Assembly: GCF_000003605.2 (NCBI RefSeq)
Contig: NW_003129858.1
Location: 163,936-189,621 of the forward strand
DNA length: 25,686 nucleotides
Reading direction: 5' to 3'
Origin: Saccoglossus kowalevskii
Lineage: Eukaryota > Hemichordata > Enteropneusta > Harrimaniidae
In this document: piece after piece, positions 1,042 through 25,296 of the stretch
Layout: each line of letters begins with the position of its first letter
Numbering within the stretch: the stretch's first letter is position 1
Translations under genes and position numbers: made by a program
The notes under the pieces: model-generated
The model's input: the letters and a program-made list of their open reading frames with translations, nothing else
Database searches by the model: none
What the model was told of the DNA's origin: nothing

Positions 1042-1128
1042 CCGATTAATTGCAGAACTCTGCGAGTCTGAGGCATCACGATATTGACCTAACATTCGAT
1101 CTACTTCTCGTAAATTACGGTTTGTGTC
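1042..1128 (-). CDS. CEP128: CEP128-like, second coding exon (87 bases)
   Basis: The acceptor is a good pyrimidine tract ending TTTTTTCCAG just above 1128, and the donor GTGAGA follows 1042. The exon is 29 codons in phase 0, from DTNRN to SSAINR. It carries the family-diagnostic NLREVDRMLGQYR segment. Confidence 0.85.
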
Positions 1129-4930: not shown

Positions 4931-5100
4931 CTGTCTATTCCGTGTAGACGACTGATAGACGTTACTTGTACACACTTCAATGCAGAATGTAATATCCAAA
5001 ATGTCTTATTTAATCCAACTCACGCTATATTGATAACTAAGCAAACTCCTGACGTCCAGTTTCCCACCTAAACACTTCTACGCTATGTGTTGTCGTTAGT
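4931..5100 (-). other. CEP128: Probable non-coding first exon of CEP128 (5' limit uncertain)
   Basis: On the minus strand the sequence GGAATAGACAG is followed at 4930 by GTAAGTTACG, a near-ideal splice donor. The likely upstream promoter is 50-150 bases away: a minus-strand CCAAT box lies at 5156-5160. The exon would carry only 5' UTR and splice to the ATG exon near 2376-2434. The transcription start is inferred, so 5100 is only a rough limit. Confidence 0.45.
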
Positions 5101-5440
5101 GGGGAAATTGAAATCGCCGCCTAGACTGCGCTTTTGATTTATAACAACTTTTCTGATTGGTCAAAAACGCGGAAGTGTTTATGGCATGTCTTAACGGTCT
5201 TCAGTTGATTCTCGTAGACTAAATATACATTTGCGTCACCAAATAGTGAAACTCGACATTTTATTAAGCACTGACATTTTGAGATTAAATAATGATAAAG
5301 TTTAATTGAATAGAATAATACTTAAAATGTAATTTTGCCATCATCAATGTGCATAAAAGCTAAACTGATAATAGCCAATCAGCATACTCGAAGTATACTG
5401 TGATAGGCCTACAAACAATTACGCATGCGTACTGTTAACT
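5101..5440. promoter_or_regulatory. Candidate divergent promoter of CEP128 (-) and CNTD1 (+)
   Basis: Two CCAAT boxes face outward: ATTGG at 5156-5160 (CCAAT on the minus strand, CTGATTGGT context) and CCAATCAG from 5375 on the plus strand. The palindrome ACGCATGCGT at 5421-5430 contains the CGCATGCG core of NRF1 sites. Each side is followed within about 100-230 bases by a plausible splice donor (4930 on minus, 5519 on plus). CCAAT plus NRF1 without a TATA box is typical of divergent housekeeping or germline promoters. No transcript evidence is available. Confidence 0.45.
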
Positions 5441-5518
5441 TCCGCCTTATCTCAGAGGGCAGTATGACATCGTCTGCCGTTTGAACATGTATTTTGATGA
5501 CTCTTTACTCTTTGACAG
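5440..5518 (+). other. CNTD1: Possible 5' UTR exon of CNTD1 (5' limit uncertain)
   Basis: TTTGACAG at 5511-5518 is followed by GTAGGATTTT, an acceptable splice donor. The exon would join the acceptor TTTCTAG ending at 7888, just before the CNTD1 start codon. An ATG at 5487 would open a short upstream frame that is out of frame with CNTD1 after splicing. It is therefore a candidate uORF, not an extension of the protein. Confidence 0.35.
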
Positions 5519-7129: not shown

Positions 7130-7320
7130 GTTTTGGCACGCAAATTGCCGCCGCCATGTTCGCCTAGTAGTCTCAAGCAGCACGCAGGGAGGTCAATACC
7201 TGAGATTCACTGTCAACCAATGCGCATAATAGACCTGCGCGAGACTTCGGTACTTTGATCATGATACTCCCATGAAAATGCAACTTGGATATGTTAGGCG
7301 GCGGGCAGAAAAAAAATGAA
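7130..7320. promoter_or_regulatory. GC-richer patch with YY1-like and CCAAT motifs; alternative CNTD1 promoter candidate
   Basis: This patch stands out from its AT-rich surroundings by clustered CpGs. GCCGCCGCCATG at 7147-7158 reads on the minus strand as ATGGCGGCGGC, the core of YY1 initiator sites. On the plus strand the same ATG has a strong Kozak context but opens only ATG TTC GCC TAG. A CCAAT lies near 7216. It is 600-700 bases upstream of the CNTD1 start. It competes with the 5.1-5.4 kb region as the CNTD1 promoter, and both could be used. Confidence 0.35.
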
Positions 7321-7904
7321 GATAAAAATAATTTTTTTAGCAATTTTTTGCACTCACAAGTCAGTAGGCGCGAGAAATTATGCTGAAATAAAATGTTATT
7401 TTTATTTCATTTTCGGCTCCTGTTCATTCGGCGGGTTCACAAAACAAGGGATAATAAAAGTCTTGTCTTACCGTAAAAAAAAGTTGCTAGAATATCATCA
7501 TTGAATAAATTTTCTCGCTCTACGCTCATTGACCTGAAAAATAATCCATCTACACCCACCGATCATAAGTAAAAACCACCTATTTCACCTCCATGAAAAC
7601 ACGGGTACAAACGTAGACATACATTCCTGTTGAAAAAGTGTGAACATGTAGTGAAAATAGCCACAGACTTGAAAACAGACAGATTGAAAGTCCATTTAAA
7701 AGCACAGACAAAATAATATATTAAAAGTAATACCCATGGTATATTACTAGTTAACCACAGCCACAAGAACAATTCAGATACATAAGCCACGACTTGAAGA
7801 TGTCAAAGAAAATGACAAACTAGTTGTATAAATGGCAAAAATGAATCTGTATTGATCAACCTTAATGCATGTGTTTCTCATTTCTAGTAATTGGTGCAGT
7901 AATC

Positions 7905-8849
7905 ATGTCAGTAGCTGGTCGAATATTTGGAAGTCCTCCAGAACCAGTATTTAACTTGGAAGGTGCTTGTATGCCAGCAGAGCTTCTTGAAGACCAGCTA
8001 TTTATCTTGGCTTCCCAAAATGAAGAATACGCTCAGTGCAACACTATCTATGATCAAGGATACTTTTGCTCAGGAATACTTGCACAGTATATTTTTTTGG
8101 TTTGTGAAAAGTTCAGATTACCATCTGAGAGTCAATTTCTGGCAGTAGATATCTTTGATAAATTTATGTCAAGACATTTACATGGCTTATACAAGTATAT
8201 CAGAACTAGTAATAAGTATGCTGACAAGAAAGAAGAGTGGAAAGCATTGGAGAATAAGCTTAGTCGTTTGATGTGTCTACGTATGGTGTCTTCAGTGCAA
8301 ATAGCAAGTAAACTAATCTCTCATGCCAAAGTTGTGACGATAAGGAAATGCAATAATTTTCTTTCTCAATCGGGACGTAATTACACAAACGAAAGTATCA
8401 TGCTCTCTGAACTTAGTATTTTGAAAGCTCTTGATTTTAAAGTGTCATCAACCTCTGCATTAACGTACATTGAGGCATTGCTTGAAATTCTTGGCCATAA
8501 CGACACAATGACCAATGTAAAAGTGCTGCATGATACATGCTTACATATCTTAGAAATGACGTACATCCAAAGACAATCTGTATATGAGAAGCTGTGCTGT
8601 ATAGCGACTGGAAACGCTGAAGTCTGCCATGAAGAAAGAGTGAAATTCAGGACAGTTGAGCAAGACATGATGTTGTTGTCTGTGGCTATCATTGGGGCTG
8701 CAACATATGTAACAGAACAAAAAATGCTTGATAGAGTATTAGACAATCTCGGAAAAATTACAAGAATTCCAATGGAAGATATTGTTGATTTTTCTACTAT
8801 ACTTGTTGAAGAAGCTCTGCAGAGCAACTGCAATATATTGAACTTTTAA
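7905..8849 (+). CDS. CNTD1: CNTD1-like cyclin N-terminal domain protein (meiotic crossover factor)
   Basis: A complete 314-residue frame, close to the ~330 residues of human CNTD1, with no stop or frameshift. Similarity is continuous: an N-terminal ELLEDQLFILASQNE segment (human ETIEDALLHLAQQNE), a central LRMVSSVQIASKLISHAK (LRLVSCVQLASKL) in the cyclin-box fold, then LSELSILKALDFKVSST (LESELDVLKSLNFRI), LTYIEALLEILGHN (LAYVETLLEVLGYN) and QDMMLLSVAIIGAATYV. The family (worm COSA-1) marks designated crossovers in meiosis and in mammals is needed for normal MLH1/MLH3 foci. I chose the ATG at 7905 because a likely splice acceptor (TTCTAG) ends at 7888. An ATG at 7869 would add 12 residues encoded mostly in intron-like sequence. 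Oddly, the coding region has no introns, whereas the human gene has several, so a retrogene origin is possible. It is convergent with MLH1 and divergent from CEP128. Confidence 0.9.
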   Translation: MSVAGRIFGSPPEPVFNLEGACMPAELLEDQLFILASQNEEYAQCNTIYDQGYFCSGILAQYIFLVCEKFRLPSESQFLAVDIFDKFMSRHLHGLYKYIRTSNKYADKKEEWKALENKLSRLMCLRMVSSVQIASKLISHAKVVTIRKCNNFLSQSGRNYTNESIMLSELSILKALDFKVSSTSALTYIEALLEILGHNDTMTNVKVLHDTCLHILEMTYIQRQSVYEKLCCIATGNAEVCHEERVKFRTVEQDMMLLSVAIIGAATYVTEQKMLDRVLDNLGKITRIPMEDIVDFSTILVEEALQSNCNILNF

Positions 8850-8918
8850 CTTGAACTTATAACATTTTACAAGTTTGTAAATGACAGTCTATTATTGGCA
8901 TTAGTAATTTATTGTGAT

Positions 8919-8924
8919 AATAAA
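8919..8924 (+). terminator. CNTD1: CNTD1 poly(A) signal AATAAA
   Basis: A canonical AATAAA starts 70 bases after the CNTD1 stop codon. No genomic A tract follows the expected cleavage site, so the 3' end does not look like a recent retrocopy junction. Confidence 0.7.
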
Positions 8925-9440
8925 GTTTAATAGTATTAAGTTTAGACATGCTGGCAATATCTCATTAACCATTCTGATTTTAATATGCAAACATCACTCA
9001 CTATGGTATGTCATAAGTGATCTGGGAAATTACTCTGTCACAGTTGGTGAGGACCACATCATGTTCAGTATGGACCCCATGTGACATGTACATTACCGTA
9101 CATATAAAATACATTGTTTATAGGAAATTCAAATGTGTTGCTTGGAAACAGTGGTGCTTTGAATGCCAATTGAATTTAACAACAATCTCAGCTAGGCATT
9201 AGTGGGGATGTGAATAGTGAGTGGATTCAAAGCCAAGTAGTATTGTAATGTATATGGTATGGAGAGGAGTCGATGTTCTTAAGAATTTTTGAATTGAGAG
9301 ATATTCCTGTAGATGGACAATCAAATATTAGAATACATAGTGGATTATTTTGCACATGTTAGCTCTCTCAATACTGTAAATAATTTTCATTTGATTTTAA
9401 TCTCACTGCGTTTCCAAATGAGCAAAATCTGCTAAATTAA

Positions 9441-9463
9441 ATTCATATGAAGAACATATGAAT
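9441..9463. repeat. Hairpin, 9-base perfect stem
   Basis: ATTCATATG (9441-9449) pairs with CATATGAAT (9455-9463) around the loop AAGAA. No associated element was identified. Confidence 0.6.
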
Positions 9464-11021
9464 ATTCTTAAGATATCGAAAAATGAAATTAAACACAAGT
9501 GAAATTTGATGCGTTTATATACCCTGCGGTTTATATTAGGATTTTAACGGTATATCTTCATTTCAGACCATTGCAGTTGAATGGTATGCATATGTATAAA
9601 CACTAATACAAATGACTAGTTTTCTTCCCCATGTATAAATTATACATTTTCACATACTAATTAATTACTGGACTTTGCAGTAAAATGCAAATTAATTTGA
9701 TTATTGTTCACAATTGATATGCTAATACCGGTAGTATTGTGCCAAGCCATGGTGTGTAATATAGTGTGAATGTTTGGCCCTAGAGATGTGAAACCTTTAC
9801 TGTCGTTTATTAACACTCTCACCACGTTGTATGTCATTTAAATTTACTGCAATTGTTTCAGTCATCATACATTCTCTTCAGAATACCCTTATGCTGTACA
9901 GGCAAGCTGTATGCCAACAGACAGACACCCACACATAAACAAAGTACTTAAAAATAAGAAATATGGAAATAATTTAATCTTAATTCAATGACTTGGTTAT
10001 GGTTACTGATTGCATAGACAGATTTTCTTCAAACTGGTTACACATACATGCTCTCAAATCTTTGTTTAGATTATTTAAAAAATAATAGCAAATTTAATGT
10101 GTGTACAGTGGTTTATTCAAGATACACAGACTAGTTTAGTTCAAACTGTAAACACCTGTTGGCTTAATTTACTTCGCGAGGTACTTCAGTTATTTTTAAT
10201 CATTTTGGTTGAAATTGTTTTCAAAACGCCAACTGTGTTGGTTCCTACTGATTGCAACATATACACGGACGTATGGTGACTTTACCATGATCGAACTTGA
10301 GATGTCTGACTGCTGTCAATTGATCGAGTCGCCAATTGATGCAGAATGGATTGGTGCAATGCAGTATGTGAGAGATAGATGTTTTGTATCATAACAATGG
10401 CTGGTGTGATGGTGCGTCTTCCCCTCGGGCATCCTACTCTCCTTCATTATGCGTACAACATGCTTCATTTCTTCGCCAATTAAGATACAAAACATCGTAC
10501 ATTAATTACGCTCTCTTTATGCTACATCAACACACAGATGACTTATAGAAAGCTTTATTTAAACAACGGAATGTATGATCGAAATGCAATATCGCAAATA
10601 CTTAAATATTGAATAACAACCACATCGATGTATACAACACTAAATTACCCACTTCTGCGAAAAGAATCAATTTAAAACATACAGTCCATTGCATTATCTG
10701 TTACCGGTACTGGTACATGCATTTGTGTGTGGTGTGTACAAGGACGCACGCACGCAGGAACACTGTGCCAATATTTGGTCGTATATTTCGATCTTTCCGT
10801 CGGGAGGGCATAGCAATAAAAATATCAAAAATACGTGTTGTTGATGTGCAAGGCGAACTTTTAGAACTTTAATAAAAAGCATTCAACCACGCATCGCTAA
10901 CCTGAATTCAGTAAGACTGTCACACAAATGCGTAATCAACTATTATAGTGATTTTTGATATACGGATAAATAAAACGAAATTACATTAACGAAAGTGACT
11001 GATAACTTTTACTATAAAAAA

Positions 11022-11097
11022 CTTAGCATCCCGTTGGCAGGCCAGTCACACTGGTTCTCACTACAAGAGGTTACGATCCCCCCTGCCAAATGCTAAG
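11022..11097. repeat. Two-step foldback of 76 bases, possible structured RNA or small foldback element
   Basis: The outer arms CTTAGCAT (11022-11029) and ATGCTAAG (11090-11097) and the inner arms TTGGCAGG (11034-11041) and CCTGCCAA (11082-11089) are all perfect complements. Only a four-base asymmetric bulge (CCCG) separates them. Inside is a small CCAGT-CAC-ACTGG hairpin. A GGTTACGATCC string resembles a tRNA B box but with an inserted base, and the overall fold is not a tRNA cloverleaf. Confidence 0.5.
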
Positions 11098-11155
11098 GAA
11101 AACTGAAACGTGTATATACATATTTACATAAAATATTGTCCACCTATGCGGATCT

Positions 11156-11251
11156 GTTGGTGCAAGGTTTTTATGACTGTATGCCCTTACTGACGTCAAC
11201 CAAACATTTTATGTGCCAGTGGGAAGTTGGCACCCAAGGCTGACAGGTACT
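11156..11251. repeat. Dispersed repeat, copy 1 of 2
   Basis: This copy runs from GTTGGTGCAAGG to GACAGGTACT. It shares long runs such as GTATGCCCTTACTGACGTCA and GGGAAGTTGGCACCCAAGG with the copy at 11424. The copies differ by scattered substitutions and a short indel (ATGTGCCAGTGGG here, ATGTGGG there). It is probably a fragment of an interspersed element. No coding frame was recognised. Confidence 0.7.
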
Positions 11252-11423
11252 ACACCTTGCCCAAAGGTGACCTGGGGGTAGTTGTGGCAAAGGGTAACCC
11301 CATTCTCCCAAGTCCATAGACTCCACAACCGGATGTAGTTTAAAATCTTGCCCAGGATAAATATATACATAATTAAACCATACACGTTGTTTTTATCAGG
11401 TAATACCTCACATTTTAGGTTGA

Positions 11424-11512
11424 GTTGGTGCAAGGCTTTTACGACCGTATGCCCTTACTGACGTCAACCAAACTTATTATGTGGGAAGTTGGCACCCAAG
11501 GCTGACAGGTAC
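11424..11512. repeat. Dispersed repeat, copy 2 of 2
   Basis: A second, same-orientation copy of the 11156-11251 unit, about 268 bases downstream and 7 bases shorter. The two copies flank about 170 bases of unrelated sequence, as expected for a local duplication or a direct-repeat-flanked insert. Confidence 0.7.
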
Positions 11513-12512
11513 TTTCCTCAAAAAATTTCAAATGATGAATACGAATACAGATAACACATAATATCCATGAAAAGTTCGTTACTAGTATGTTATTTTCTAA
11601 CACCATCTCCATGAGTACCTGTATCTGTTAAATATGGTCTTTTTATTGGATTCGTCCCCTGTTATCTTAATGCTTTTGGGGCATATGTCAATATAAAAAT
11701 ATCAGCGAATAACAAACAAGTGTTTACATTTTTAGTTAGGGTTGGTACCATATAGAGTTGAGAAGCAACAATGCATAAACTTGAACACAAGACAACAAAA
11801 AACGAAAAGTTGCATGACAAAGCAAAAAAAAGACACACAGAGTAAATTCAAAACAATAAAACATCAAAATTGCATCAATATCTAGGAGGAGTTATCGTCT
11901 AGATTCAAAACAGATTCGCAAATAATCGCCTAAAGAAATTATGGAGAACTGTTTTTCCGTAGTATGTACAAGTCTTTTCGTAGGTTTAATATGATTCTAA
12001 ACCCCACGCTTGTGTGGAAAATGTTATACACCTGTGCAAGATAGCAGATTTCTACCACAATCCCTCAACTGTCATTCTACTCACACCCGTTTAGAATTGT
12101 GAACCAACTTGAACCCGTACGTACTTTGGGGTTATTTTTTGTTAGTTCATGGACAAAGCCCATTTATGCAGATTTAGTACTAACTGTGGGCACTAATTAT
12201 GATTGAGTTAATGGTCTGTGTGCGTATTTTTCTGAAATGTGCGCTGGCCTGGTCAGATAGTTTGATCAAAATTTGGAGAGGTCAATAATTAATCCTTAAT
12301 GGATTAAATTAAAACAAGCTACAAACTCCGATCACTGATTTTTCTATCTACATGATTATCATGTGTTCTGTGTGCAACGCGTTGCCATTAATATCACAGA
12401 AAGTGATTTTAAACCTTTCCCTGTATCTAAGAGGTAATATAACGTATATCATACGTTAGACAATTCATCAAATATATCATGTCTGTGAATATCAAATTAT
12501 CAATATGGTGGA

Positions 12513-12541
12513 CCACAGCCCCTCTATCAGAGGGACTGTGG
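12513..12541. repeat. Hairpin with 13-base stem and one mismatch
   Basis: CCACAG and CCCTCT on the left pair with AGAGGG and CTGTGG on the right. There is one C/A mismatch and an ATC loop. The right arm AGAGGGACTGT recurs at about 14800 in another imperfect foldback, so it may belong to a repeat family. Confidence 0.55.
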
Positions 12542-13443
12542 GTGGACACATCTTTACTTATACAAGCCAAATGACAAAATAACTTTTGCCAAGCATACGT
12601 CTTAAACGTCAAATAGTTTTGACATAGTTTACCAAAATATCACTGAGTATCGCGATAGACTTACACTGATCATATCATTTTATTTCTTAGATATAAGGGT
12701 ATTTACAATGTTCTTGATTATACTATTAAACTGAAAGGCATATTTAAAATACAGGGAAATGTAGAGAAATCAATTGTCAGATTACACTACGTTTGGTTTT
12801 ACCCAATTTGGTCATGTTTGTGGCTTGTCATTTACCTATGGGAATCGTGGGACAGATACGACTTTAAAGAATATTGCAATAGGAATAAAGAAGTTGTTTT
12901 AATATGGTTGGGGACAAACATTCCGGAGCCCCTTGGAAGAAATTGGTGTTTATACTCGCCAATACGTGTTGTATACAGTCGGGTTTAACAACGTTAGACA
13001 CAATTTCAATGTTTATTGAAAAAAAAAAAAAAAACATATCATAGCAAAAAATGTTGCAGTACTGATTACTAAAGCTGCTCTGCTTTATTTCCACATTCAA
13101 CATCAAGAATGTTTTATCGAATGTCGAATATATATTACCGTAACAATGTTCCTGGCTTATTTATCCATTTGACCTTTCAAGTTTATGTATTTTGTCAAAC
13201 CACTGCACACGAACCTGTACACAGGGATAATAACGAGCACTGCCGTATTTTGCGTACCAAATTACGGTGTCTCTAAGTGCCGATACATACTAAATACTTT
13301 AGTAGATCAACATTAATGCTAAATGACAATTCAATATTTTTTTCGTAAGAACTTTGACTGTAAGGAGCAGTTGATCAACTCTCACGCACGAGATATACGG
13401 AGAGTGCGGGGTAGAGGTTAATTTCGTATTGTGTGCATCAAAA

Positions 13444-13463
13444 CACAGTCCCTCCGGACTGTG
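13444..13463. repeat. Hairpin, perfect 8-base stem with CTCC loop
   Basis: CACAGTCC pairs with GGACTGTG. It resembles the terminal hairpins of the dispersed family in base composition, but the flanking A-rich tail and GGACGG tract are absent. Confidence 0.5.
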
Positions 13464-13696
13464 ATCAAAACAGCAATTAGAAACAAAGGATGGACTGAAA
13501 ACGAACTTGAGAAACGTAAAACATTGTACAAATATCTTCAGCTGAGAATATTGGCATCTCCATGTGAACTCATGTCGAGAGAGTGGCATACTAACTCATC
13601 TTGCCAACCTTGACTTAGACTGTCGAGAGTCGCTCTTGTCTAATGGGTTTTGCCCCAACCATGGAAGTATAACTATGCGTCCGCGAGAAGCCCAAG

Positions 13697-13828
13697 GGAT
13701 TTCAAGTGAGCACCGTAAGGCCTGAGGCAGTCCCTTTGGCCTAATGGTTTTTTTTCCAAACAAAATGATTTATTTAATGAAAAGTTTGCGAAATGCCATA
13801 AAGCCTTACGGCCCTAGCTTGAAACGCC
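13697..13828. repeat. Imperfect inverted repeat pair
   Basis: The segment 13697-13730 and the reverse complement of 13793-13828 share TTTCAAG followed by CCGTAAGGC at matching spacing, plus scattered further matches. This suggests a degraded foldback element with about 60 bases between the arms. Confidence 0.45.
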
Positions 13829-13965
13829 TTTGGCATTACACAAACGCATTGCGATATTTGATTAAATCATTTCAGCCTGACCTTGACTAGACCTCCATGC
13901 TATTACCACACTTCTTGTTAGGACACGAGGGGAGGGGCCTCTCGACCGTGAAAACTGGAGGGGGG

Positions 13966-14556
13966 NNNNNNNNNNNNNNNNNNNNNNNNNNNNNNNNNNN
14001 NNNNNNNNNNNNNNNNNNNNNNNNNNNNNNNNNNNNNNNNNNNNNNNNNNNNNNNNNNNNNNNNNNNNNNNNNNNNNNNNNNNNNNNNNNNNNNNNNNNN
14101 NNNNNNNNNNNNNNNNNNNNNNNNNNNNNNNNNNNNNNNNNNNNNNNNNNNNNNNNNNNNNNNNNNNNNNNNNNNNNNNNNNNNNNNNNNNNNNNNNNNN
14201 NNNNNNNNNNNNNNNNNNNNNNNNNNNNNNNNNNNNNNNNNNNNNNNNNNNNNNNNNNNNNNNNNNNNNNNNNNNNNNNNNNNNNNNNNNNNNNNNNNNN
14301 NNNNNNNNNNNNNNNNNNNNNNNNNNNNNNNNNNNNNNNNNNNNNNNNNNNNNNNNNNNNNNNNNNNNNNNNNNNNNNNNNNNNNNNNNNNNNNNNNNNN
14401 NNNNNNNNNNNNNNNNNNNNNNNNNNNNNNNNNNNNNNNNNNNNNNNNNNNNNNNNNNNNNNNNNNNNNNNNNNNNNNNNNNNNNNNNNNNNNNNNNNNN
14501 NNNNNNNNNNNNNNNNNNNNNNNNNNNNNNNNNNNNNNNNNNNNNNNNNNNNNNNN
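13966..14556. other. Assembly gap (591 Ns)
   Basis: Unread bases. The left edge is a G-rich run (GGAGGGGGGG) that may have stopped sequencing or assembly. Open frames reported across the Ns are artefacts. Confidence 0.98.
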
Positions 14557-15875
14557 GGTCTACCCAAGGCACATATACACCAAGTATCAAAGCATTCAGG
14601 CTTGTAGTTTTCAAGAAGAAGTCGAAAAAGTAAAACATTGACACGGACGACGACGACAATCACTCATATGATAAGCTCCGCTCGACAAAGTCGACAGCGG
14701 AGCTAAAAAAAACATCAGGTATCCAAACTATCTACTGATGCATGTAATTTGCCCATATTTTAATTGAAAATGTCCACTATTAGTAGGGTTTAACCACATA
14801 GAGGGACTGTAGTTAACTATATGGGGAGCTGGCAAAGTCATTGTATATATAGAGACAAGTTTTTGTACAATTTTTAGTGTTTAATTTTTTTTTTTTCACT
14901 AGTTTGCTGGATTAACTCTTAAAGGGCCTCGCTCGCTGTGCTGCATCCTGTTTGATACAGAGGACTGTAGTGTCATACATGACATGTGTAACATACATTA
15001 TTTACATGAAATTCATGTGTGACAACCATCAACATTTAATGTTGTATTGTATTTTGACTTTTGAAATGTAAAGTAATATGTGTACTGTGATACATACAAC
15101 ACCTACAGGATTTGCTGGATGTCTGCCTTGTCAATTAATAGTCGAACATTACCAAGCAGTTCTGTGGCTTCGGTTGTGATTGAGTTTTCATCATCTTAGG
15201 GTGTAAACCTAGTCACCGAATTGTACACCGAATTCTCTATTCTATATTACACACATTATAAACAATGCAATGTGTCAGGTTTTAACAGGTATAACTCACA
15301 AATACAGTAACTTTAACATTTGATTTTTATTCATGTTACTCAAAATTGATAGTGCTTCAAATTATGTTGTGACAGTACTACAACCCAGGGATGCTGTAGT
15401 TGATAAATTAATAACACCAAATATATTCATGTAAATATAGAACAATTTATTAGTAAAATAAAGTTAAAGCTAGCAATACTTTAACAATTTACAGGTTATT
15501 TTGTAGTGTCAATGTGAATGACAGTCAGATGTAAAATTGTATCATCTCTTACAACAATTAACCCTTCCTAATGTCCAAGAAAAACTGTAAAATGTTGACA
15601 CGTAATTATACAAATAAATTGTTATACTATAATTTGAAAGCAAAGGTATGAATTACACAATAAAGTAACATTAGATGATACTCTGCTACATAGGAGTATG
15701 ACTAGCTAGGGTGCTGACACTTTTGTTTTGCATGGCTGCCATGGTAATATATTTATGTATCAATTATACAGCTGCACTTTCTCTCAAATGAGTGGACAAA
15801 TATTATTAGCACAAGTTTTCATTGGAGAAAGATAATGGCAATTACATAACCAATGAGCCTTGGCTTTGGAGTGAT
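14557..15875. other. Spacer between CNTD1 and MLH1, right part: no gene supported
   Basis: AT-rich. It contains the hairpin module at 14641-14710, a T run near 14886-14896 and an imperfect foldback around 14791-14821 with CCACATAG/CTATATGG arms. Nothing coding was recognised. Confidence 0.55.
14641..14710. repeat. 3' end module of the dispersed hairpin repeat
   Basis: It follows the same order as the copy at 20669-20740: a GAC/GGAC-rich tract (CACGGACGACGACGACAA), then ATAAG, then a hairpin, then CTAAAAAA. The hairpin pairs AGCTCCGC (14674-14681) with GCGGAGCT (14697-14704) and TCGAC with GTCGA around AAA, with a two-base bulge. The stem sequence differs completely from the other two copies. 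The upstream body of this copy would fall near or in the assembly gap. Confidence 0.6.
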
Positions 15876-15881
15876 TTTATT
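15876..15881 (-). terminator. MLH1: Candidate MLH1 poly(A) signal
   Basis: TTTATT on the plus strand is AATAAA on the minus strand, about 140 bases past the MLH1 stop codon. It is the nearest canonical signal, but the region is AT-rich and other sites are possible. Confidence 0.45.
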
Positions 15882-16021
15882 TAACAAATTACCATACTTA
15901 GATTTTGATACATCGTTGCTATGGTGTTTGTGACATGTTATCATGAATAGATTTTGCATGATTTGTCACTAAATTGACCATCAAGTCACTCCTTTGTTAT
16001 TTGGATTTTAATAAATTATAT

Positions 16022-16195
16022 CTAGCATCTTTCAAATACTTTATACAAGTCTGGAAGATTGGCAATCTGCAGTATACTGGTATCCTGTGCAAAGCTAGCA
16101 GGTGGATATAATATAGCTTTGAAAGCTGGATATAGTGTATGCTCCACACTCCATTTCCAATTATCACCACATGAGTCAGCACATGCATCATCAGT
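16022..16195 (-). CDS. MLH1: MLH1 last coding exon (exon 19 equivalent)
   Basis: The acceptor is TGTATCCACAG, in phase 0. It encodes [20 protein letters not shown] and on to [16 protein letters not shown] and a TAG stop. The end is almost identical to human MLH1 ([16 protein letters not shown]). Confidence 0.97.
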
Positions 16196-19100
16196 CTGTG
16201 GATACAAATAAAATAAAAACTTTTACATTATTTCAAGTCTAATACTAATTTTCTGGTAGATTTCAGCCCAATATTGCCAATAGTAATGATGATTATTTCA
16301 CAGTGTGTTTTTTTCATAGATAAGGAAATTTTGTCCGACATGCAGTGTAAAACATTCTTATAACTGTCTTCATGGTTTGCTATTTGATTTATGCAAGGCA
16401 GTTTACAAGCTAGAAATAAGTATATCATCTATGTGCTTCACTATGATGGTACCAATTGAACAAATTCCATTGTCTACTATTTAACTGATATACACAATGG
16501 TGTTTCCCAAGACTATATTTTCAGCCTGTGACTTGACGTTGGTTCACATTCGACATGTACTGTATGCAAATGAGAAAACTCAGTATTCCCAATTTAAGAG
16601 AAAACTATAATCATATACTTCATAAAACTTATTGTACCATTGTTTATGGAAGTGCTATTTATTGCAAAATGTGGTTTATTTTTGTCAGAACTATTCAAAG
16701 CAACATAGGCTCTAAAGGTGAAATATGAGTGGTTCTAGAAAACAGGATTTGTTTCAAAAGGTGGACTCTGCTGCGCATAAGAGTAATAGACTTACTTCTT
16801 TGATTCCTTGTTCTGGAAAAACAAATGCTTTTTTTATTGTGTAAAACTTACTGCACTCCTTGGCAAATGACTCAAAACAAGCCTTTTCAGAATCCCAATC
16901 AACCTTTGGTAAAAACAGACAGCAATGGTTCAGTGTACAAAAATTTGCTTATCACTTAAAACTTGAGACAAATACAGACAATAGAAATGATGTTGTCATT
17001 GAGGATCATGTACATGCAGTAATACCACAACAAATTCACTTACTTCTGTTGCTATTCTTAGAATAAACATTGGCAGACCTGCTAGTGGAGGAATATAATT
17101 CTCCAATAATAGTGGTAAAGTGCAAAGTTGACCATCCTGAAAAACAGCAACATAAATCTTTGTGTAGCATAATCGTCATAATACGTAGCAGGCAATTGAG
17201 TGCAGTCGGGCAGTTCATTGATTTACTAAAAATAGAATTGACACAACCATAGATAGTCAAATCTTGTGAATTGTGGGCAAGTTATTCAATGTTCAAGTTG
17301 AACGAGATTAAAGATGGTGCTTTGCAGGACTTTTGTGTTGCTGCTAAAATAACTTGAAACACCATTCAAAATTAAACTATCAGTCTGTTAACAGAAAGCG
17401 CTAAATAATTTGTGAAACAACAAACAAAATGATGGCTTTTTTGCACTCAAGATTGACCTAACTCATAAGCAAGAACTCGGTACAAGATTCCAATATACAC
17501 TTGGAAGTGAAAAATATTGATTTTGAATAATGTGATTGAAATTACAGAGTAGATATATTTAAAGATTATTGCATGACTGTGATGTCATCATCTTTATGCA
17601 AACTGATGATTCAAAATATCAAGATCAGACTGATGTAAAGCATGCAGTGTAATATAACAGGTATACCTGTAACAACCTATTTATCATATATGTTTTCACT
17701 CATGCAGAGTAAATAAAGAAGGGGTAATAAATGGACATACCTCATCAACTTCCATTGAAAAATAATCCAATAACATTTCTTTTTTGGACTTGAAAAAATC
17801 AACAATATACTGCCCAAGGTCTTCTTTAGGACCATCACTCTCAGACCATCCACTTTCCTCCAAATCAAGGGCTATCATGGCCAATTCATAAAGGGGAGCA
17901 GGTGTCTGAGAGAAAATGTGAAAACAAAATAATTATATCTGACAAATACAAGGAATTGATAAACATTTATTATTTCAACTGAATGACAGGTAAATACAAA
18001 TATATTAAGTAGATCACTTGTTTAGGCTGCCCTGATATAGAAAGGTTATTCAAAGGTGCTGAACTCAATAACATGATAGAGTCCCAAATAGTTTAGTAGT
18101 AAACAAAACTGATTTGAGTCTGTCATTTAGAATCAGAATTGAAATAATGCATGTCAACATTTGTGACATAATGTATAACGTAATTTTTCATTTTTTTTTA
18201 TTTAGCTAATTGTTTATAGAATTGAAGATGCATAGTACCCAAGTATCATTTCCTGTCAATAGTTGCCTGGGGCCTGTTTACAGACTCAGAAATGAGAGAC
18301 AGCACAACTCAAGCATATGATATAGATGTATTGAGAGGAATACATCCATTGTCTTGCAAAACCATTACTCTTCTTGTTCAATTTTATCAGTAATGTCATT
18401 ATAAGTCACTGCAAAATAATGAGAATTAGCTGCACGTACCGACAATCTCAGGAATCCAAAATTACCAAAATCATACATGAATTGCTGGTAGAAAAATTCT
18501 TGACTGAAAAATAAATTAACAAAGTAAATTTTGTGCATGATAAATTATCAACACTTGTTTGCCAGTGTGGATGAAATGCATTGACTGGTCTTTGATTGTA
18601 TGTGATGGGAGGGGTGTAGGAGCAATTGATCAATGAACAACAGTAATATGTATGAAAAGGATTATGATTACCTACTACTATTTTCAATATGTTTTTTTTG
18701 AGTCATTGAGTTGTTATTTGTCTTGTGTTGCATTGCCTAAGATGATGATGCATTCGAAAAGAACAATTTTACTAAAAATTCGTTGACATTATACCCATGC
18801 ACATTCAAGTTATTAAATTATAAGTGAGTTCAAATGTCTAGTAATGCAGTGCAGTAATGCACAAGCCAGGTGAAAAAAAGCAAAGTGCTAAAAAGCAAAA
18901 ACATTCTGTCATTTTCTCTTTTCACACATTTTGATAAACTACAAGTTAGTGTAAAGTTTTGCTTCACATCCTAGGAAATATAGAAAGATGATGCTGATAC
19001 GCATTTAATTTTTTTGTATTAAAATGATATGTTCAACACTTATTTAAAAAAAGGTTTCAAATACATCTATTTGTTTGATCAACAAAAGATTCTTGGAAAC

Positions 19101-22100
19101 AGAAAACAAACACTTCCCCATTCTGTTGCATATGACGTATATATAATTGAGAAAAAATATTCTGTTGGCATAACTGACCTTATTTTAGCAGTGTTTACTA
19201 AATATAATTTAGTATGATGTTGCATCAGAGCTAGTTCTGGATTTACACAGCCAACAAAAGTATGGTTCTTGAACATATCCCTTAAACCTACAAACAGAAA
19301 TTTTGTAAAGAAATAACAAAAGTAATGTGTAAGGTTTTGCATGGAGATTGACATCAATAAGCAATAACTGTCACAAGTAATAACTGCATGAAATATGATG
19401 CAGTGACGGATACACATGATAAAATAGAATATTCCTGATATCTGAATAACTTGATAAATGCATAGAATATATGAAATATATACACAACTCCAGTTAGTTT
19501 TGAGTCAAGTTAGAATTTAAGAAGTATTTGACCAACAACTATGTGTAAATATTTAATCAAAGAAACCTTAGAAATAACTCCTGTTTACAAGGGTATTGAA
19601 AGCATAGAGTACAAAACATAGCACAACTATTACAACTGCTCAATATTGCACCCAGGCAACAGACAAGGTAACCTCTTTACCATACCATTTTATTATCATT
19701 ACTGTCAAGGTAATTATTATGGTAGATAAGTATTTTGCCCCCCAGATCATCAAAATATTGAATGCAAGACACACTCGCCCACTCACTAACCTTTGTGCAT
19801 ATTCTGTTCAATCTCTTTTTGTAGTGTTAAAACACTAGTAAGTGTAATCTCTCTTCTATGTGGCTGTCTAACAAATGAACTAGAACTATCCTGACAATCA
19901 CTATCATATTCTCTTTGTTTCCTGTTGAAGTGATCATAATACAAGTCATTAGAAATTGACACTTTCCCAGTTAAATTTTTGAAAGTTCTCTTTGTGCTCG
20001 TCATATTAAAGCGGAGAAGTTGTCGCAAGCGTGTCCCTGAAACTTTAGTTCCAAGTGGCGTATAGACCCAGATTGTTTATTTACATCAAAACACGTGTTC
20101 AGTGTAGTAGTAATATGGCCAAAAATAAAAACAGCCGTTATTCGGCCATCTTTGATCTGATTATAAAACACACTGATATGTATGATGTATGTGCCAAATA
20201 CGAATGAAAATGGTACATAAATTGTGGAAATATAGTAGTAAGACCAAAAAGTCAGATGGCTGTCATTCAGCCATCCTTGACCAGATTTTGAAACAAATTG
20301 TCATGGACATGCATCCTAACATGTATAAAGTACATGTATGTGCCAAATTTGAATGAAAACTGACAGAGCACATCCAAGATACCGCATAAAAAAAAAACAA
20401 GATGCCTGCCAGTCGACCATCTTTGATCCAATTGCGAAATAAATCGTCATGGACATGTATCCTAACATGTATAATCTATGTACCAAGTTTGAATGACAAC
20501 TGACAAAGCATGTTTAAAATACAACATTTTCAAAAAACAAGATGGCTGCCTGTCGGCCATTTTGAATCGAATCGCTAAACCACTGCATGTGCATATGTCC
20601 CACATAAGGTACTAGGCACATGCAAAGAATGAACAGAATCGGTCCACAGGATTCTGAAATATAACTCTGGACGGACACACGGACGGACGGAGACCGAATT
20701 ATAAGTCCCCGTTTTCGGACTTCGAACGGGGACTAATAAAGTGAGCAGGCATCAGTCGATACAACCATACTGTATACTGGATTATTAAAATATGCTTTTG
20801 TCTAGAGGTTATAAATGGCAAGTGAGGCTATTTTGTAGTGGATATAAGACCTCTCTAGGTAAAATTACCATATTTTGTGGGAGATAATAACCAAGTGTAA
20901 GCTCTAAATATGCTAATTTTACCCAAGATTACCATTTATAAACTCATTATAACATGCTGGCACAAGAAATACACTACAAACTTACTGTTTATATCATGTT
21001 GCTATGTGTAAATTTCTAATTCTCTCAAGGTCTTTTCTTGGATTATAGTACTATTGTAAGGGGTGATGAAAAAGTTTTTTTTTAAAAACACCTAAAAGTG
21101 TTAAAATTGTGAAAACATAAAACCCCGATTTTCATTGTTAATGCATTATTTTGGTTTTATTTGTGTAAACTGGCATTCTAATTCATTTTGAAGGATTAAA
21201 ATTTACCTGCTGCGTAGTGCGTGTTCTAGATATCATATATCAAGTTCAGGGCTAAAACATGCTCTATAGAACATATGCATAAATGGGTGAGGCATATGGC
21301 AAAATGGTCAACAGTTCTTGTATATTTCAATGAGCTAGTGGCAATAGTGACTATACACTATTTCCGCATATAAACACAAAGCAAAAACAGTAAAATATAC
21401 AAAGTTTTTAGTTATGATTCTTTGCAGTTACGTTGATTAACAAAAACAGACGACAGGTCTGGCGAGTGACAGGAACGAACACGTCGATGACATCTTGTGT
21501 TCAATTCAAACACTATGCTGCAATGAACAAGCATGTTTCTCACAGGGAGTTTTTTCACAAAATGCGCAATATATTACTATTTTTCCCAATAATAATTCGT
21601 ATTCGGTTTGCCTGTTTTGATTAGTTTATCACACAGTCGCAATCACTATAAACAGTGCTCACAGTCAATCTCGTTTCAGTTAGATATTTAAGCCAGTTCA
21701 TTAAGTTTTGTGGTGGGATCACAGGTCTTCCAGTGCCAGGTATAAGACCTTGTTTCAGCCAATCAGATTGCTAGATTCAGATTTTCATAATTGAAGATAG
21801 ACCATTGTCATTGTACGCATTTGATTCTCTTGGACGACACTAACAGAATAATTTTCAAAGTGATTAAAAGATCCTCTTCAGGTACTAGGTAGTTCAGTTG
21901 AGTATATCTGAATATTACCCTAGTTAATAAGCAAGGGAAAGAAGTGAATCATAATTTACTAGGATTGTCAATCAGAGCTTATGATGAAGTTTCTAAGCAA
22001 AGAAGCACATCTGTATGATGTTCTAACCATTTTGGAGTAACTATTATAATGTACTTACCCTGAAACAGAAGTATCCATGGTAACCAACTCATTATCTTCC

Positions 22101-25100
22101 TCTATTTCATTTACAGTACAATCCAATTTGTTTTCTTTCCCTAAATTATCAAGCTGAGTAAAATCAACTGTTGTGTCACCTAAAGAGACACAAGCAACTT
22201 CCTGGACACTCCCTGAGCTTCTGGTACTGGCTACTTCCTTGAACTCATCAGCACTGGTAGTACGGGCAACTCGGACAGCCCCTCTGTCGCTTGTACTGGC
22301 AGACGTTGGTGAATTATCTATGCTGCTGGTACTGCTAGGTCTTGGTGTAGCAATCCTGGAAGAACTCAAAGTAGCACTTTCCTCAGGAATGATAGAGGGC
22401 GATGAAATCTGGGATTTGTTAAGAAATGTTTCTAGTTTCTGTATTTTGTTATCTGTTCTCACCATCTGATGAGCATAGACCTTGTCCCCACTTTTACCAG
22501 TGTTGCTCGGTAAAATTTCAGAGGTTTGTATGGAAGCACCTGGGAGTAAAGCCTGGAAATGTAATAACAATAATATATTGGATACCAACAATATAGAAAA
22601 TAGTGTAACCATGAAAGTAAGAATGATATAATAGCTATAAGAGTTACATGTATCAGATAAATCATACAAGTTATACAATTATTGTTATGATTTCATTACG
22701 AACAAGTCATTATTAAGGAAATAGTCGTCGTTGGAATCAGAGGAAATGTTATTCATGCCAAAAATAAAATATAGACCAAAAGCATAGTTAGTAATTGAGA
22801 GTGAATAATTGGCTGGTCTAGTATAAGTATAAATTAGATTCCAATATGTATGAAGTATATGCAAAATATGATAAAATGATCCCTTAGCCTTCTTTGATCT
22901 CATTATGAAACAAATTGTCATGGACATGTAATCTAAAATGTACAATGTATGTACCAAATTTGGCCACCATTTGAATAAGCATGCATAAGATACCACATTT
23001 TCAAAAACAAAATGGCTGCCAGGTAGCTAACTTGGATTGAATCAGTAAACCCTGCATGTGCATATATCCCAGATAAAGTACGAGGCACATGCAAAGAATA
23101 AACAGATTTGGTCCACAGGGTTCTGAAATATGACTCCAGACGAACAGAGACCAAATTATAAGACAGGGGATAAATGTGCATCCTGATTGGTTTAGTTGGT
23201 TAGACAGAAGATAAAGTGTGTTCCGATTGGTTTAGTGGGTTGGGCCGGGGATAAATGTGTATTCTGATTGATTTAGCAGGTTAGACAGGGGATAAATGTG
23301 TATTCTGATTGGTTTAGTGGGTTAGACAGAAGATAAAGGTGTATTCTGATTGGTTTAGTGGGTTGGGCCGGGGATAAATGTGTATTCTGATTGATTAAAT
23401 GGGTTAGACAAGGGATAAATGTGCATTCTGATTGATTTAGCAGGTTAGACAGAAGATAAAGGTGTATTGTAATTGGTTTAGTGGGTTAGGCAAGGAAAAA
23501 AAGTGCATTATGATTGGTTCAGTTGGTTAGACAGAAGATAAAAGTGTGTTCCGATTGGTTTAGTGGGTTAGCAAAGGGATAAATGTACTTCCTGATTGGT
23601 TTAGTGGGTTAGGCCAGGGATTAATGTGTATTCTGATTGGTTCAGTGGGTTAGACAGAAGACAAAGGTGTATTCTGATTGGTTTAGTGGGTTAGGCCAGG
23701 GATAAATGTGTATTCTGATTGGTTTAGTGGGTTAGACAGAAGATAAAGGTGTATTCTAATTGGTTTAGTTGGTTAGGCCAGGGATAAATGTGTATTCTGA
23801 TTGGTTTAGTGGGTTAGACAGACGATAAAGGTGTATTGTGATTGGTTTAGTGGGTTAGGCAAGGAAAAAATGTGCATCCTGATTGATTTAGCAGGTTAGA
23901 CAGAGGATAAATGTGTATTCTGATTGGTTTAGTGGGTTAGTCAGAAGAAAAATATGCATCCTGATTGGTTTAGTGGGTTAGACAGAGGAAAAATGTCAGG
24001 GGACAAAGGTGTATCATGATAGGTTTAGTTGGTTAGGCTTGATACAAAAGTGCATTATAATTGGAAAATAGAAAATAACAGGTATTCTCCAGAAATTCTA
24101 GGATGAATATGTTGTGTCATTACAAAACAGGGTTAGCAATTACCTGTGTGAAGAATGTTCTGGATGCATTAGCACCAAGTAGCTTTTGCTCTACACACTG
24201 CTGTATTTCCTCTAATATCATGTCTTCATGTAAGAAATGTACTTCATGCTTTGTGGGATGAACATTTACATCAACATTCTGAGGAGAAATCTCTAAACTA
24301 TAAAAAGATTAAAATAGTAGAATGTTATTACATTCATATTATTACTGTCATTGTAAAACGATAAGAATTACCAAGATATGAAAGACAGTAAAAACATACA
24401 TGGATCATTAGTTTTTGTGGAAGCTCTAAAAGATTGTCATTATTTCTACTGCAGTGGAAGAGTAATGCTGAGACTGACAGAGTGGGTTTTTAGGGTGAAC
24501 TCTGAACTTAGAAATATATCTATACTTCTATTTAGAATGACAAATGCAGATAATTTCAGGTGACTTTAGCCGACAACAGTGAAGAATTTAAAACTAGACT
24601 AATGGTACTAGACTACAGGTACAATGCAGATTTTATGACACCTATAAAGTACACTTTTTAAAATGGATACCTAGTAATTGCATTACATAGTCTCTGTGAA
24701 TTTTCAAAGTTTAAACTGCATTCACTAAAACAAAATGACATGCATCAAATACCAAGTTTGAATGAAATCTGTCCATGCACAACTGAGATTCAGATTCTGA
24801 ATAGCAGCCATTTTGAATTGGATCACCAAATGAATAAATATGCATATATGTGACATGATGTATATCAGACATTCAACTCTGGAACAGCATTTGTGAAAAG
24901 AAAATGGCTGCCTGTCAGGAATTTTAAATCAGATCTAGAACGTCCAATGTATGCACCCAATTGACCATACACAGCAGAGATCTGGTTTTGGAATGGCATA
25001 AAGGCTTGGTTTTGATGAATGTGAGCACAAAAATCATTTGGCCATCTCGAAACGGATTGCAAAACTAATGGATGTGCAAATGTATGTTAAAATGCAGGAT

Positions 25101-25296
25101 GTATGTGTAAAGTTTGAACGTAATCGGGTCAAGGCATGTCTGAAATACAGGTGGAGAAGCACATGGACGCACAAAAATATTGCAGCCACAAATGTGTCTC
25201 ACCTTAGGTACAGAAATGGATGTGAATTCTTCGGTAAGTAAGATGTGTACACTGCCTCTATAGTTTTCCTCAAAGCTGATGACTCTACCAAACGAT
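16022..25296 (-). CDS. MLH1: DNA mismatch repair protein MLH1, last ten coding exons (5' part off the window)
   Basis: Exons 25296-25203, 24297-24144, 22552-22059, 19921-19791, 19287-19179, 18503-18440, 17905-17741, 17136-17044, 16903-16796 and 16195-16022 join in one consistent phase for 1586 coding bases (about 527 residues). They cover the end of the N-terminal ATPase/transducer region, including the MutL-family string [13 protein letters not shown]; a Ser/Thr-rich linker opening with [12 protein letters not shown] and QKLETFL; and the C-terminal dimerisation domain with [20 protein letters not shown], ending in the conserved FERC. MLH1 pairs with PMS2, PMS1 or MLH3 in mismatch repair, and with MLH3 resolves meiotic crossovers. 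The C-terminal Cys contributes to the partner's endonuclease site in studied homologues. Exon lengths 94, 154, 109, 64, 165 and 93 equal human exons 10, 11, 14, 15, 16 and 17 as I recall them. The linker exon is longer than human. No disabling changes are seen. Confidence 0.97.
16796..16903 (-). CDS. MLH1: MLH1 exon 18 equivalent (108 bases)
   Basis: The acceptor TTTTTACCAAAG has an imperfect tract, and the donor is GTAAGT. It encodes [20 protein letters not shown] and 16 further residues, matching human [20 protein letters not shown]. It is two codons shorter than the 114 bases of the human exon. The lost codons are in the variable tail, which reads FPEQGIKE here. Confidence 0.95.
17044..17136 (-). 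CDS. MLH1: MLH1 exon 17 equivalent (93 bases)
   Basis: The acceptor is GTTTTTCAG and the donor GTAAGT. It encodes [20 protein letters not shown] and [11 protein letters not shown], with the same length and phase as the human exon. Confidence 0.96.
17137..17740. other. MLH1 intron between exon 16 and 17 equivalents
   Basis: A 604-base intron with GT-AG ends. A TGATGTCATCA string near 17580-17592 is CRE-like, but is probably incidental here. Nothing else was seen. Confidence 0.8.
17741..17905 (-). CDS. MLH1: MLH1 exon 16 equivalent (165 bases)
   Basis: The acceptor is TTTTCTCTCAG and the donor GTATGT. It encodes [38 protein letters not shown] and [17 protein letters not shown]. This matches human exon 16 in length and phase, and most residues are identical or similar. 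Confidence 0.97.
17906..18439. other. MLH1 intron between exon 15 and 16 equivalents
   Basis: A 534-base intron from GTACGT to CTCTCAG on the minus strand. It is AT-rich, with no feature seen. Confidence 0.8.
18440..18503 (-). CDS. MLH1: MLH1 exon 15 equivalent (64 bases)
   Basis: The acceptor is TTTATTTTTCAG and the donor GTACGT. With the AG carried from exon 14 it encodes [20 protein letters not shown] and LS (human [21 protein letters not shown]). The exon is too short to stand out as an open frame, but its length and phase are the same as human. Confidence 0.96.
18504..19178. other. MLH1 intron between exon 14 and 15 equivalents
   Basis: A 675-base intron with GTCAGT donor. It is AT-rich, and no gene or repeat family member was recognised. 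Confidence 0.8.
19179..19287 (-). CDS. MLH1: MLH1 exon 14 equivalent (109 bases)
   Basis: The acceptor is TTCTGTTTGTAG and the donor GTCAGT. It encodes [20 protein letters not shown] and [15 protein letters not shown]. This is the start of the C-terminal dimerisation domain core, the same length and phases as human. Confidence 0.97.
19791..19921 (-). CDS. MLH1: MLH1 exon 13 equivalent (131 bases, acceptor less certain)
   Basis: The donor is GTTAGTGAG. It encodes [20 protein letters not shown], then [20 protein letters not shown]. The second part matches human [20 protein letters not shown]. The acceptor CTTCAACAG at 19922 has a weak pyrimidine tract. I chose it because it completes the split Gly codon in phase and leaves a plausible branch region (TTCTAATGAC) upstream. 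The upstream open frame to about 20028 could be additional coding sequence if another acceptor is used. The human exon is 149 bases. Confidence 0.8.
20112..20740. mobile_element. Modular non-coding repeat: four monomers, GGACGG tract, terminal hairpin
   Basis: Four diverged monomers are anchored on CCAT at 20146, 20271, 20417 and 20557 (spacing 125, 146 and 140). Each has a version of AAGATGGCTGCC, GCCATCTTTGATC, TCATGGACATGTATCC and CCAAGTTTGAATG in this order. The last monomer is more diverged. Then come the tract GGACGGACACACGGACGGAC (about 20669-20690), ATAAG, and a hairpin of AGTCCCCGTT (20704-20713) with AACGGGGACT (20725-20734), then CTAATAAA. No frame is coding. Tandem monomers plus a terminal hairpin recall Helitron-derived non-autonomous elements, but the canonical ends are not evident, so the class is open. 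Confidence 0.7.
20809..20941. mobile_element. 133-base imperfect palindrome, MITE-like
   Basis: The outer arms TTATAAATGG (20809-20818) and CCATTTATAA (20932-20941) are perfect complements. The inner arms at 20858-20875 and 20906-20923 match over GGTAAAATTA-CATATTT with one mismatch. It is non-coding and AT-rich. No clear target-site duplication was seen. Confidence 0.5.
22059..22552 (-). CDS. MLH1: MLH1 exon 12 equivalent (494 bases, linker region)
   Basis: The acceptor is TTATTACATTTCCAG and the donor GTAAGT. It encodes [20 protein letters not shown], then [20 protein letters not shown] and ETFL, then a long Ser/Thr-rich stretch (about 100 residues, with many TS, SS and DEF/EED patches) ending MDTSVSG. 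The start and end phases equal human exon 12, but the exon is 123 bases longer than the 371 I recall for human. The extra length is all in the disordered linker. Confidence 0.95.
22885..23163. mobile_element. Partial copy of the modular repeat (two monomers and truncated tail)
   Basis: The order is the same as the end of 20112-20740: TCATGGACATGTAATCTAAA, AAAATGGCTGCC, GCATGTGCATAT, GGCACATGCAAAGAAT, GGTCCACAGGGTTCTGAAAT, then CCAGACGAACAGAGACCAAA and TTATAAGAC. It stops where the hairpin should begin, and the 41-base satellite starts there instead. Confidence 0.7.
23162..24064. repeat. 41-base tandem satellite, about 22 units
   Basis: The unit reads approximately TTCTGATTGGTTTAGTGGGT, then TAGACAGAAGATAAAGGTGT and A. 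I count 21 full units and a partial one, with an insertion of roughly 10 bases in unit 20. Two unit types alternate in places (GACAGAAGATAAAGG and GGCCAGGGATAAATG), so an 82-base higher-order period is visible, especially in units 11-16. Units 7-8 closely resemble units 16-17. Nearly every unit has ATTGG or a one-base variant. It lies wholly in an MLH1 intron. Confidence 0.95.
24144..24297 (-). CDS. MLH1: MLH1 exon 11 equivalent (154 bases)
   Basis: The acceptor is CTTTTTATAG and the donor GTAATT. It encodes [20 protein letters not shown], then [20 protein letters not shown] and [11 protein letters not shown]. The DVNVHPTK motif is the most conserved part of the MutL transducer domain. Its Lys reaches the ATP site in MutL structures. 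Confidence 0.97.
24298..25202. other. MLH1 intron between exon 10 and 11 equivalents
   Basis: A 905-base intron with donor GTGAGA and acceptor TTTTTATAG. The half nearest exon 10 (about 24735-25190) is made of diverged monomers of the modular repeat. The rest is unremarkable AT-rich sequence. Confidence 0.8.
24735..25190. repeat. Diverged monomers of the modular repeat
   Basis: Successive monomer marks are visible: ACCAAGTTTGAATGAAATCT, AGCAGCCATTTTGAATTGGA, AAAATGGCTGCCTGTCAGGA, GGCCATCTCGAAACGGATTG, GTGTAAAGTTTGAACGTAAT and GGCATGTCTGAAATACAGG. It ends with ACATGGACGCACA, similar to the start of the GGACGG tract, close to the exon 10 donor. Confidence 0.65.
25203..25296 (-). CDS. MLH1: MLH1 exon 10 equivalent (94 bases)
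   Basis: The acceptor is TTTGTTTATTGCAG and the donor GTGAGA. It encodes [20 protein letters not shown] and [11 protein letters not shown] (with exon 11). Human reads [20 protein letters not shown] and PKNTHPFLYLS. Length and phases are identical to human. Exons 1-9 are beyond the right edge. Confidence 0.97.

Follow-up and report, generated by a model that had tools for sequence, protein, structure and literature searches.

A single-coding-exon CNTD1 gene next to MLH1 in Saccoglossus kowalevskii: a possible case of retrogene replacement

The closest described parallel to the locus reported here, a stretch of Saccoglossus kowalevskii DNA of 25,686 nucleotides (hereafter the window) in which the crossover genes CNTD1 and MLH1 are neighbours, is the SYCP1 gene of amphioxus. 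According to the excerpted text of Garstang and Ferrier 2018 (PMC5803294), amphioxus SYCP1 is a retrogene replacement with a single coding exon, which uses the apparently bidirectional promoter of a neighbouring gene and has new exons in its 5' untranslated region (5'UTR). SYCP1 retrogenes are described there for both amphioxus and Ciona, and work cited in the same text indicates that most 5' introns of retrogenes accompany the recruitment of bidirectional promoters. For CNTD1 itself, an excerpt of PMC13285272 gives a human messenger RNA (mRNA) of seven exons, encoded on chromosome 17, in which exons 6 and 7 measure 97 and 171 bp, and an excerpt of PMC7303132 describes mouse primers in Cntd1 exons 1 and 2 that yield a 238-bp product. 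The S. kowalevskii CNTD1 gene, by comparison, has one intact coding exon.

The window comprises positions 163936-189621 of contig C2160 in an assembly of 572 Mb and 4830 contigs, and its guanine-plus-cytosine content is 34%. On the + strand, the order is a CEP128-like gene (-), CNTD1 (+), a 7.2-kb spacer that includes a gap of 591 N, and MLH1 (-). The original prediction, made from the letters of the window, placed CNTD1 and MLH1 next to each other, and their coordinates, strands and ends are confirmed by open reading frames (ORFs), splicing and Pfam matches: CNTD1 (7905-8849, +) and MLH1 (25296-16022, -) converge, 7.2 kb apart. It was right on both genes; it overlooked that the CNTD1 coding sequence is intronless and that a CEP128-like gene lies at the left edge. 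Both genes were found once each, their exon structures could be read, and no recognisable gene lies between them. The features of CNTD1 are as follows:

7888..8940, + strand: CNTD1 exon (preceded by an acceptor-like site; poly(A) signal AATAAA at 8919; 3' end approximate)
7905..8849, + strand: CNTD1 coding sequence (one exon, 314 amino acids, intact ORF)

The CNTD1 frame has no internal stop across its 314 residues, and measured from stop to stop it spans 327 amino acids, as against at most 190 in any of 100 Markov-shuffled versions of the window. Pfam recognises an N-terminal cyclin box (Cyclin_N, E 5.2e-10, over the cut-off). Against a presumed human CNTD1 sequence, the protein aligns at E 2e-43 over 286 columns, of which 32% are identical. 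Of 304 residues aligned, 95 agree, and the identity of 31% is carried through both halves. The PDB matches at E<=1 consist of 16 distinct sequences (ten of cyclin E1 and six of cyclin B1), the best of which, a cyclin E1, reaches only 22.5 bits. Judged by these alignments, the predicted protein is throughout more similar to CNTD1 than it is to the ordinary cyclins. The presumed human sequence agrees with the excerpted sources in two respects: its length of 330 fits the exon 7 start at c.823 plus 171 bp (PMC13285272), and six of its residues agree by eye with the mouse exon 2 primer (PMC7303132). The likeness to the CNTD1/COSA-1 crossover cyclin lies in the length (314 amino acids here, 330 in human) and the cyclin box, and the difference in the one coding exon here versus the seven exons of the human mRNA (excerpt of PMC13285272). 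A single-sequence structure prediction gave a mean pLDDT (predicted local distance difference test) of 37.8 and was not used.

Two of the excerpted human exon junctions map to residues ~245 and 277-278 of the S. kowalevskii protein, inside the uninterrupted ORF, and the 238-bp mouse product places a further coding junction within about the first 80 codons. The coding introns therefore appear to have been lost here relative to mammals, human and mouse being the sole species compared for exon structure and a single genome supplying the sequence evidence. Copies of CNTD1 were sought in the searchable part of the 572-Mb genome, whose N-reading stretches could conceal others. At E<=0.001 the one match is the window copy itself (two candidates were scored), and neither a second copy nor a multi-exon parent was found. 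Two features expected of a retrogene that has replaced its parent are thereby present, namely a single coding exon as against multi-exon orthologues and, within that search, the absence of the multi-exon parent.

The head-to-head neighbour of CNTD1 is the CEP128-like gene (start region 1042-2473, -), and that start and the region between the two genes contain the following elements:

1042..1128, - strand: CEP128-like second coding exon (29 codons; in frame, AG acceptor to GTGAGA donor)
2213..2473, - strand: first coding exon of the CEP128-like gene (coding part from the ATG at 2365 down to 2213, 5' untranslated part from 2473; frame and predicted acceptor)
4931..5176, - strand: predicted CEP128 5'UTR exon and core promoter (ACTTCCG, ETS-like, at 5176; CCAAT at 5160; donor after 4931)
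5375..5518, + strand: predicted core promoter and 5'UTR exon of CNTD1 (CCAAT at 5375, CGCATGCG at 5422, ACTTCCG at 5438, donor after 5518)

CEP128 is a centrosome gene. The second coding exon of the S. kowalevskii gene matches a presumed human CEP128 sequence at E 3e-7 (49% over 41 amino acids), and the two-exon piece matches no Pfam family over the cut-off; the remainder of the gene either falls in a part of the contig that reads N or escaped detection. CNTD1 appears to share a putative two-way promoter with CEP128, rather than with MLH1. All of the promoter motifs lie within 300 bases; ACTTCCG occurs twice in the window, at 5176 (-) and 5438 (+), facing outward, and CGCATGCG, which we take to be an NRF1-like motif, occurs once, as compared to 0.03 expected. 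The ratio of observed to expected CpG (CpG o/e) rises to 1.09 in 4401-6500, versus 0.48 in the CEP128 part and 0.43 in the CNTD1 exon. The matrices used to score splice sites were trained on eleven acceptors and ten donors, nine of the latter from MLH1 and one, which stood one base out of register, from CEP128. For CEP128, the donor after 4931 is the best of 72 GTs and the acceptor at 2473 the best of 24 AGs. For CNTD1, the highest score among the 62 AGs in 7000-8000 (8.7) belongs to an acceptor-like site that ends at 7887 and precedes the ATG by 17 bases; of 149 GTs, the donor after 5518 ranks second (7.4), behind the one at 6731 (8.3).

On this evidence we infer retroposition, loss of the parent, a shared promoter and a 5'UTR intron. 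The reading that we favour, at about even odds, is that the adjacency of CNTD1 and MLH1 is a lineage-specific by-product of such a move, in which CNTD1 was retroposed and replaced its multi-exon parent. A spliced CNTD1 mRNA from the germ line would have been reverse-transcribed and inserted beside CEP128, where it would have adopted, by means of a new 5'UTR intron, the side of the promoter that faces away from CEP128; the multi-exon parent would have been replaced and then lost, and MLH1 would merely have happened to lie downstream of the insertion. An arrival by retroposition would mean that CNTD1 has lain close to MLH1 only since the insertion, which would make an ancestral linkage less likely. 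No shared regulation of the two is needed: the genes converge, and MLH1 has its promoter past 25296, outside the window.

With its single coding exon, the lack of any parent in the search, a predicted 5'UTR intron and the promoter apparently shared with CEP128, CNTD1 would have the same anatomy as amphioxus SYCP1. As in the excerpted account of Garstang and Ferrier 2018 (PMC5803294), this is a meiosis gene with a single coding exon for which no multi-exon parent was found, with one or more upstream 5'UTR exons and an apparently bidirectional promoter (both predicted in the present case) facing a divergent neighbour, CHIC in amphioxus and CEP128 here. The amphioxus case, unlike ours, is backed in that account by reverse-transcription polymerase chain reaction, a transcriptome, three Branchiostoma species and multi-exon SYCP1 genes elsewhere, as compared to the sequence of one genome here.

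The model of the MLH1 gene begins at 25296, ends with the stop at 16022 and has ten coding exons, each assigned by in-frame splicing:

25203..25296, - strand: MLH1 exon, 94 nt (earlier exons outside the window)
24144..24297, - strand: MLH1 exon, 154 nt
22059..22552, - strand: MLH1 exon, 494 nt (linker)
19791..19921, - strand: MLH1 exon, 131 nt
19179..19287, - strand: MLH1 exon, 109 nt
18440..18503, - strand: MLH1 exon, 64 nt
17741..17905, - strand: MLH1 exon, 165 nt
17044..17136, - strand: MLH1 exon, 93 nt
16796..16903, - strand: MLH1 exon, 108 nt
16022..16195, - strand: MLH1 terminal coding exon, 174 nt including the stop

The spliced product of 527 amino acids matches Pfam Mlh1_C at E 3.5e-95 and PDB 3rbn, the solved MLH1 C-terminal domain, at E 1.4e-105, and it ends in FERC; residues 1-82 of the model are matched by PDB 4p7a. 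The gene extends beyond the window on the right; its earlier exons, among them those for the N-terminal GHKL ATPase domain, would lie in that part of the contig, which reads N from 189622 to 206236. Within the window, a presumed human MLH1 N-terminus matched only two exons. All five Mlh1_C matches in the genome are exons of this gene, which was thus found once in the searchable part. Human MLH1 exons 10-19 presumably measure 94, 154, 371, 149, 109, 64, 165, 93, 114 and 168 nt. By these presumed sizes, six of the ten exons are identical (94, 154, 109, 64, 165 and 93, equivalent to human exons 10, 11 and 14-17) and four differ (494, 131, 108 and 174 here versus 371, 149, 114 and 168); the C-terminal domain and the terminal FERC are further points of likeness. 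The human MLH1 neighbours, which we take to be EPM2AIP1 and LRRFIP2, differ from those found here. One MLH1 intron contains, at 23161-23996, a tandem array of ~20 copies of a 41-bp unit, in which 14 of the CCAAT[CG] matches of the window reside. A CpG-richer stretch at 20000-21500 (CpG o/e 0.75), in an MLH1 intron that is otherwise poor in CpG, has 2.2 copies of a 140-bp repeat and is perhaps a younger insertion.

The spacer between the two genes is rich in repeats:

10941..11513, no strand assigned: dispersed repeat (own-genome search)
13966..14556, no strand assigned: assembly gap, 591 N (sequence)
14557..14713, no strand assigned: end of a young abundant repeat entering the gap (own-genome search)

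The dispersed repeat has at least 65 matches in the genome, its own locus included (the best 40 of 249 candidates were scored), the others showing 79-96% identity; it carries an internal repeat spaced ~268 bp. The last 157 bp of an abundant element adjoin the gap on its right. For this stretch the best 40 of 1276 candidates yielded 39 near-full-length matches at 96-99% identity, and the element has the same end in three other copies (L029, L030 and L031). Two fuller copies measure ~570 and ~905 bp (bounds taken from their mutual similarity), and the third reads N before its last ~410 bases, so that N adjoins the element both here and in L031. The element has internal repeats of ~157 bp. At the left edge of the gap (13300-13965), no other match was found among the candidates scored.

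The original prediction, which had reported the gap at 13966-14556 and no recognisable gene in the spacer, suggested that a small gene could be hidden there. The gap and the repeats are real, and a hidden gene was sought and rejected on the grounds of the ORF scan, the CpG o/e and the repeats, although a small or fast-evolving gene is conceivable. None of the 17 gap-free ORFs of at least 60 amino acids lying wholly within the spacer (a set that leaves aside six ORFs spanning the N) matched Pfam over the cut-off; there was no transfer RNA, and no Rfam family at the gathering score. The CpG o/e of 0.82 in 10001-14700, as against 0.43 in CNTD1 and 0.18-0.28 in most of MLH1, argues against a broadly germline-expressed gene in the spacer. 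In the gap itself a gene is unlikely, because the gap begins in the abundant repeat, the missing length of which (413-748 bp from the two fuller copies) fits the 591 N.

Several observations weigh against a retroposed CNTD1. If a parent exists but has diverged strongly, the genome search, which listed no ordinary cyclin either, may have missed it, and the ancestral exon structure is taken from mammals only. The predicted 5'UTR exon and promoter of CNTD1 consist of consensus matches: the donor after 5518 (7.4) scores below all nine MLH1 donors (8.0-10.3) and is not the top-scoring one, the acceptor at 7888 (8.7) scores a little below the 11 training acceptors (9.4-15.0), and CCAAT is weak evidence because CCAAT[CG] occurs 34 times in the window. 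No run of at least 7 A and no A-rich 20-mer, as a poly(A) remnant might leave, was found in 8850-9300, and nothing like a target-site duplication was seen: the longest word common to the two flanks of CNTD1 is 8 bases, a length equalled or exceeded in 71% of 300 random placements. The absence of an insertion scar is to be expected of an old event, yet it supports nothing, a scar being the mark of a young retrocopy and not required of an old one. The former neighbourhood of CNTD1 gives no help. An excerpted source places human CNTD1 near BECN1, CCDC56 (COA3) and WNK4. In S. kowalevskii, BECN1 (PF04111) lies on C2860, which ends ~290 bases beyond the match, and a COA3-like match (PF09813, E 2.5e-4, 18 of 48 positions) on C1346; these are separate contigs, neither is that of CNTD1, and no usable linkage can be read from them. 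For PSME3 (PF02252) and LRRFIP (PF09738) the genome gave no match, but none of 14 controls was detected; for amine oxidase (PF01179) there was likewise no match, with one of 14 controls detected. PSME3, AOC and LRRFIP2 are presumably neighbours in human.

The chief rival to retroposition would look much alike: recombination between CNTD1 and its complementary DNA (cDNA) may have removed the coding introns in place and spared the 5'UTR intron, with the adjacency being due to chance or to the lineage, without any retroposition. Such a loss, mediated by cDNA from the 3' end, would naturally leave the 5'-most intron, and the sole remaining predicted intron is indeed the one before the ATG; the single copy means that no loss of a parent need be invoked, and the lack of an insertion scar around CNTD1 accords with it. 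Nothing specific favours this as the old location of CNTD1, however, and all of its coding introns are gone while the adjoining MLH1 keeps nine visible ones. Since MLH1 retains ten exons, six of them of presumed human size, intron loss is no regional trend and is peculiar to CNTD1 of the two genes. We regard loss in place as unlikely, albeit worth serious consideration. Least probable of all is a CNTD1 that was intronless in ancestral animals and acquired its introns on the vertebrate line, which would need about six gains in one gene, a rare occurrence in vertebrates. The adjacency could also be a scaffolding error, the contigs of CNTD1 and MLH1 having been wrongly joined. The only link between the two is a scaffold join that crosses repeat DNA: it holds 591 N, and the gap is bordered on its right by a repeat with 1276 candidate copies, many of them of 96-99% identity. 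The gap size is no round default, which suggests support by read pairs, and the fit of the missing repeat to the gap likewise speaks for a correct join, so that we hold such an error to be very improbable.

The original prediction had left three readings of the adjacency side by side, ancestral linkage later broken in vertebrates, a lineage-specific arrangement, and chance. The single-exon structure of CNTD1, the apparent promoter sharing with CEP128 and the base rate together favour the latter two. Given 50-100 meiosis or repair genes among 20,000-30,000 (assumed numbers), 0.08-0.5 adjacent pairs are expected per genome, and the CNTD1-MLH1 adjacency by itself is within chance. An ancestral animal linkage, perhaps kept for a joint role in crossing over, draws some support from function, as CNTD1 promotes crossing over in mouse (excerpt of PMC7303132) and MLH1-MLH3 drives most crossovers (excerpt of PMC6588253). 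The gene bodies of CNTD1 (0.43) and MLH1 (0.18 and 0.28, outside the 20000-21500 stretch) are also poor in CpG, which fits methylation and expression in the germ line; this fits the CEP128-like gene (0.48), an equal neighbour, just as well, and it is with CEP128 that CNTD1 appears to share its promoter. The convergent CNTD1 and MLH1, at 7.2 kb, have no promoter in common. In the literature search, no paper among the matches listed dealt with CNTD1 gene order or a CNTD1 retrogene, and the one found with both CNTD1 and "synten-" has CNTD1 only in its reference list. An ancestral linkage is accordingly improbable in our view. Somewhat more doubtful still is the idea that selection has long kept these crossover genes together in one or another group of invertebrates, a germline retrocopy of CNTD1 having inserted next to MLH1 and survived there since this chromosomal domain is active in meiotic cells.

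If CNTD1 was indeed replaced by a retrogene in S. kowalevskii, a crossover gene would join SYCP1 of amphioxus and of Ciona (excerpt of PMC5803294) among such cases. This would also support the idea that meiosis genes, being expressed in the germ line, tend to be remade from their mRNA, and would indicate that such an insertion can place functionally related genes side by side.

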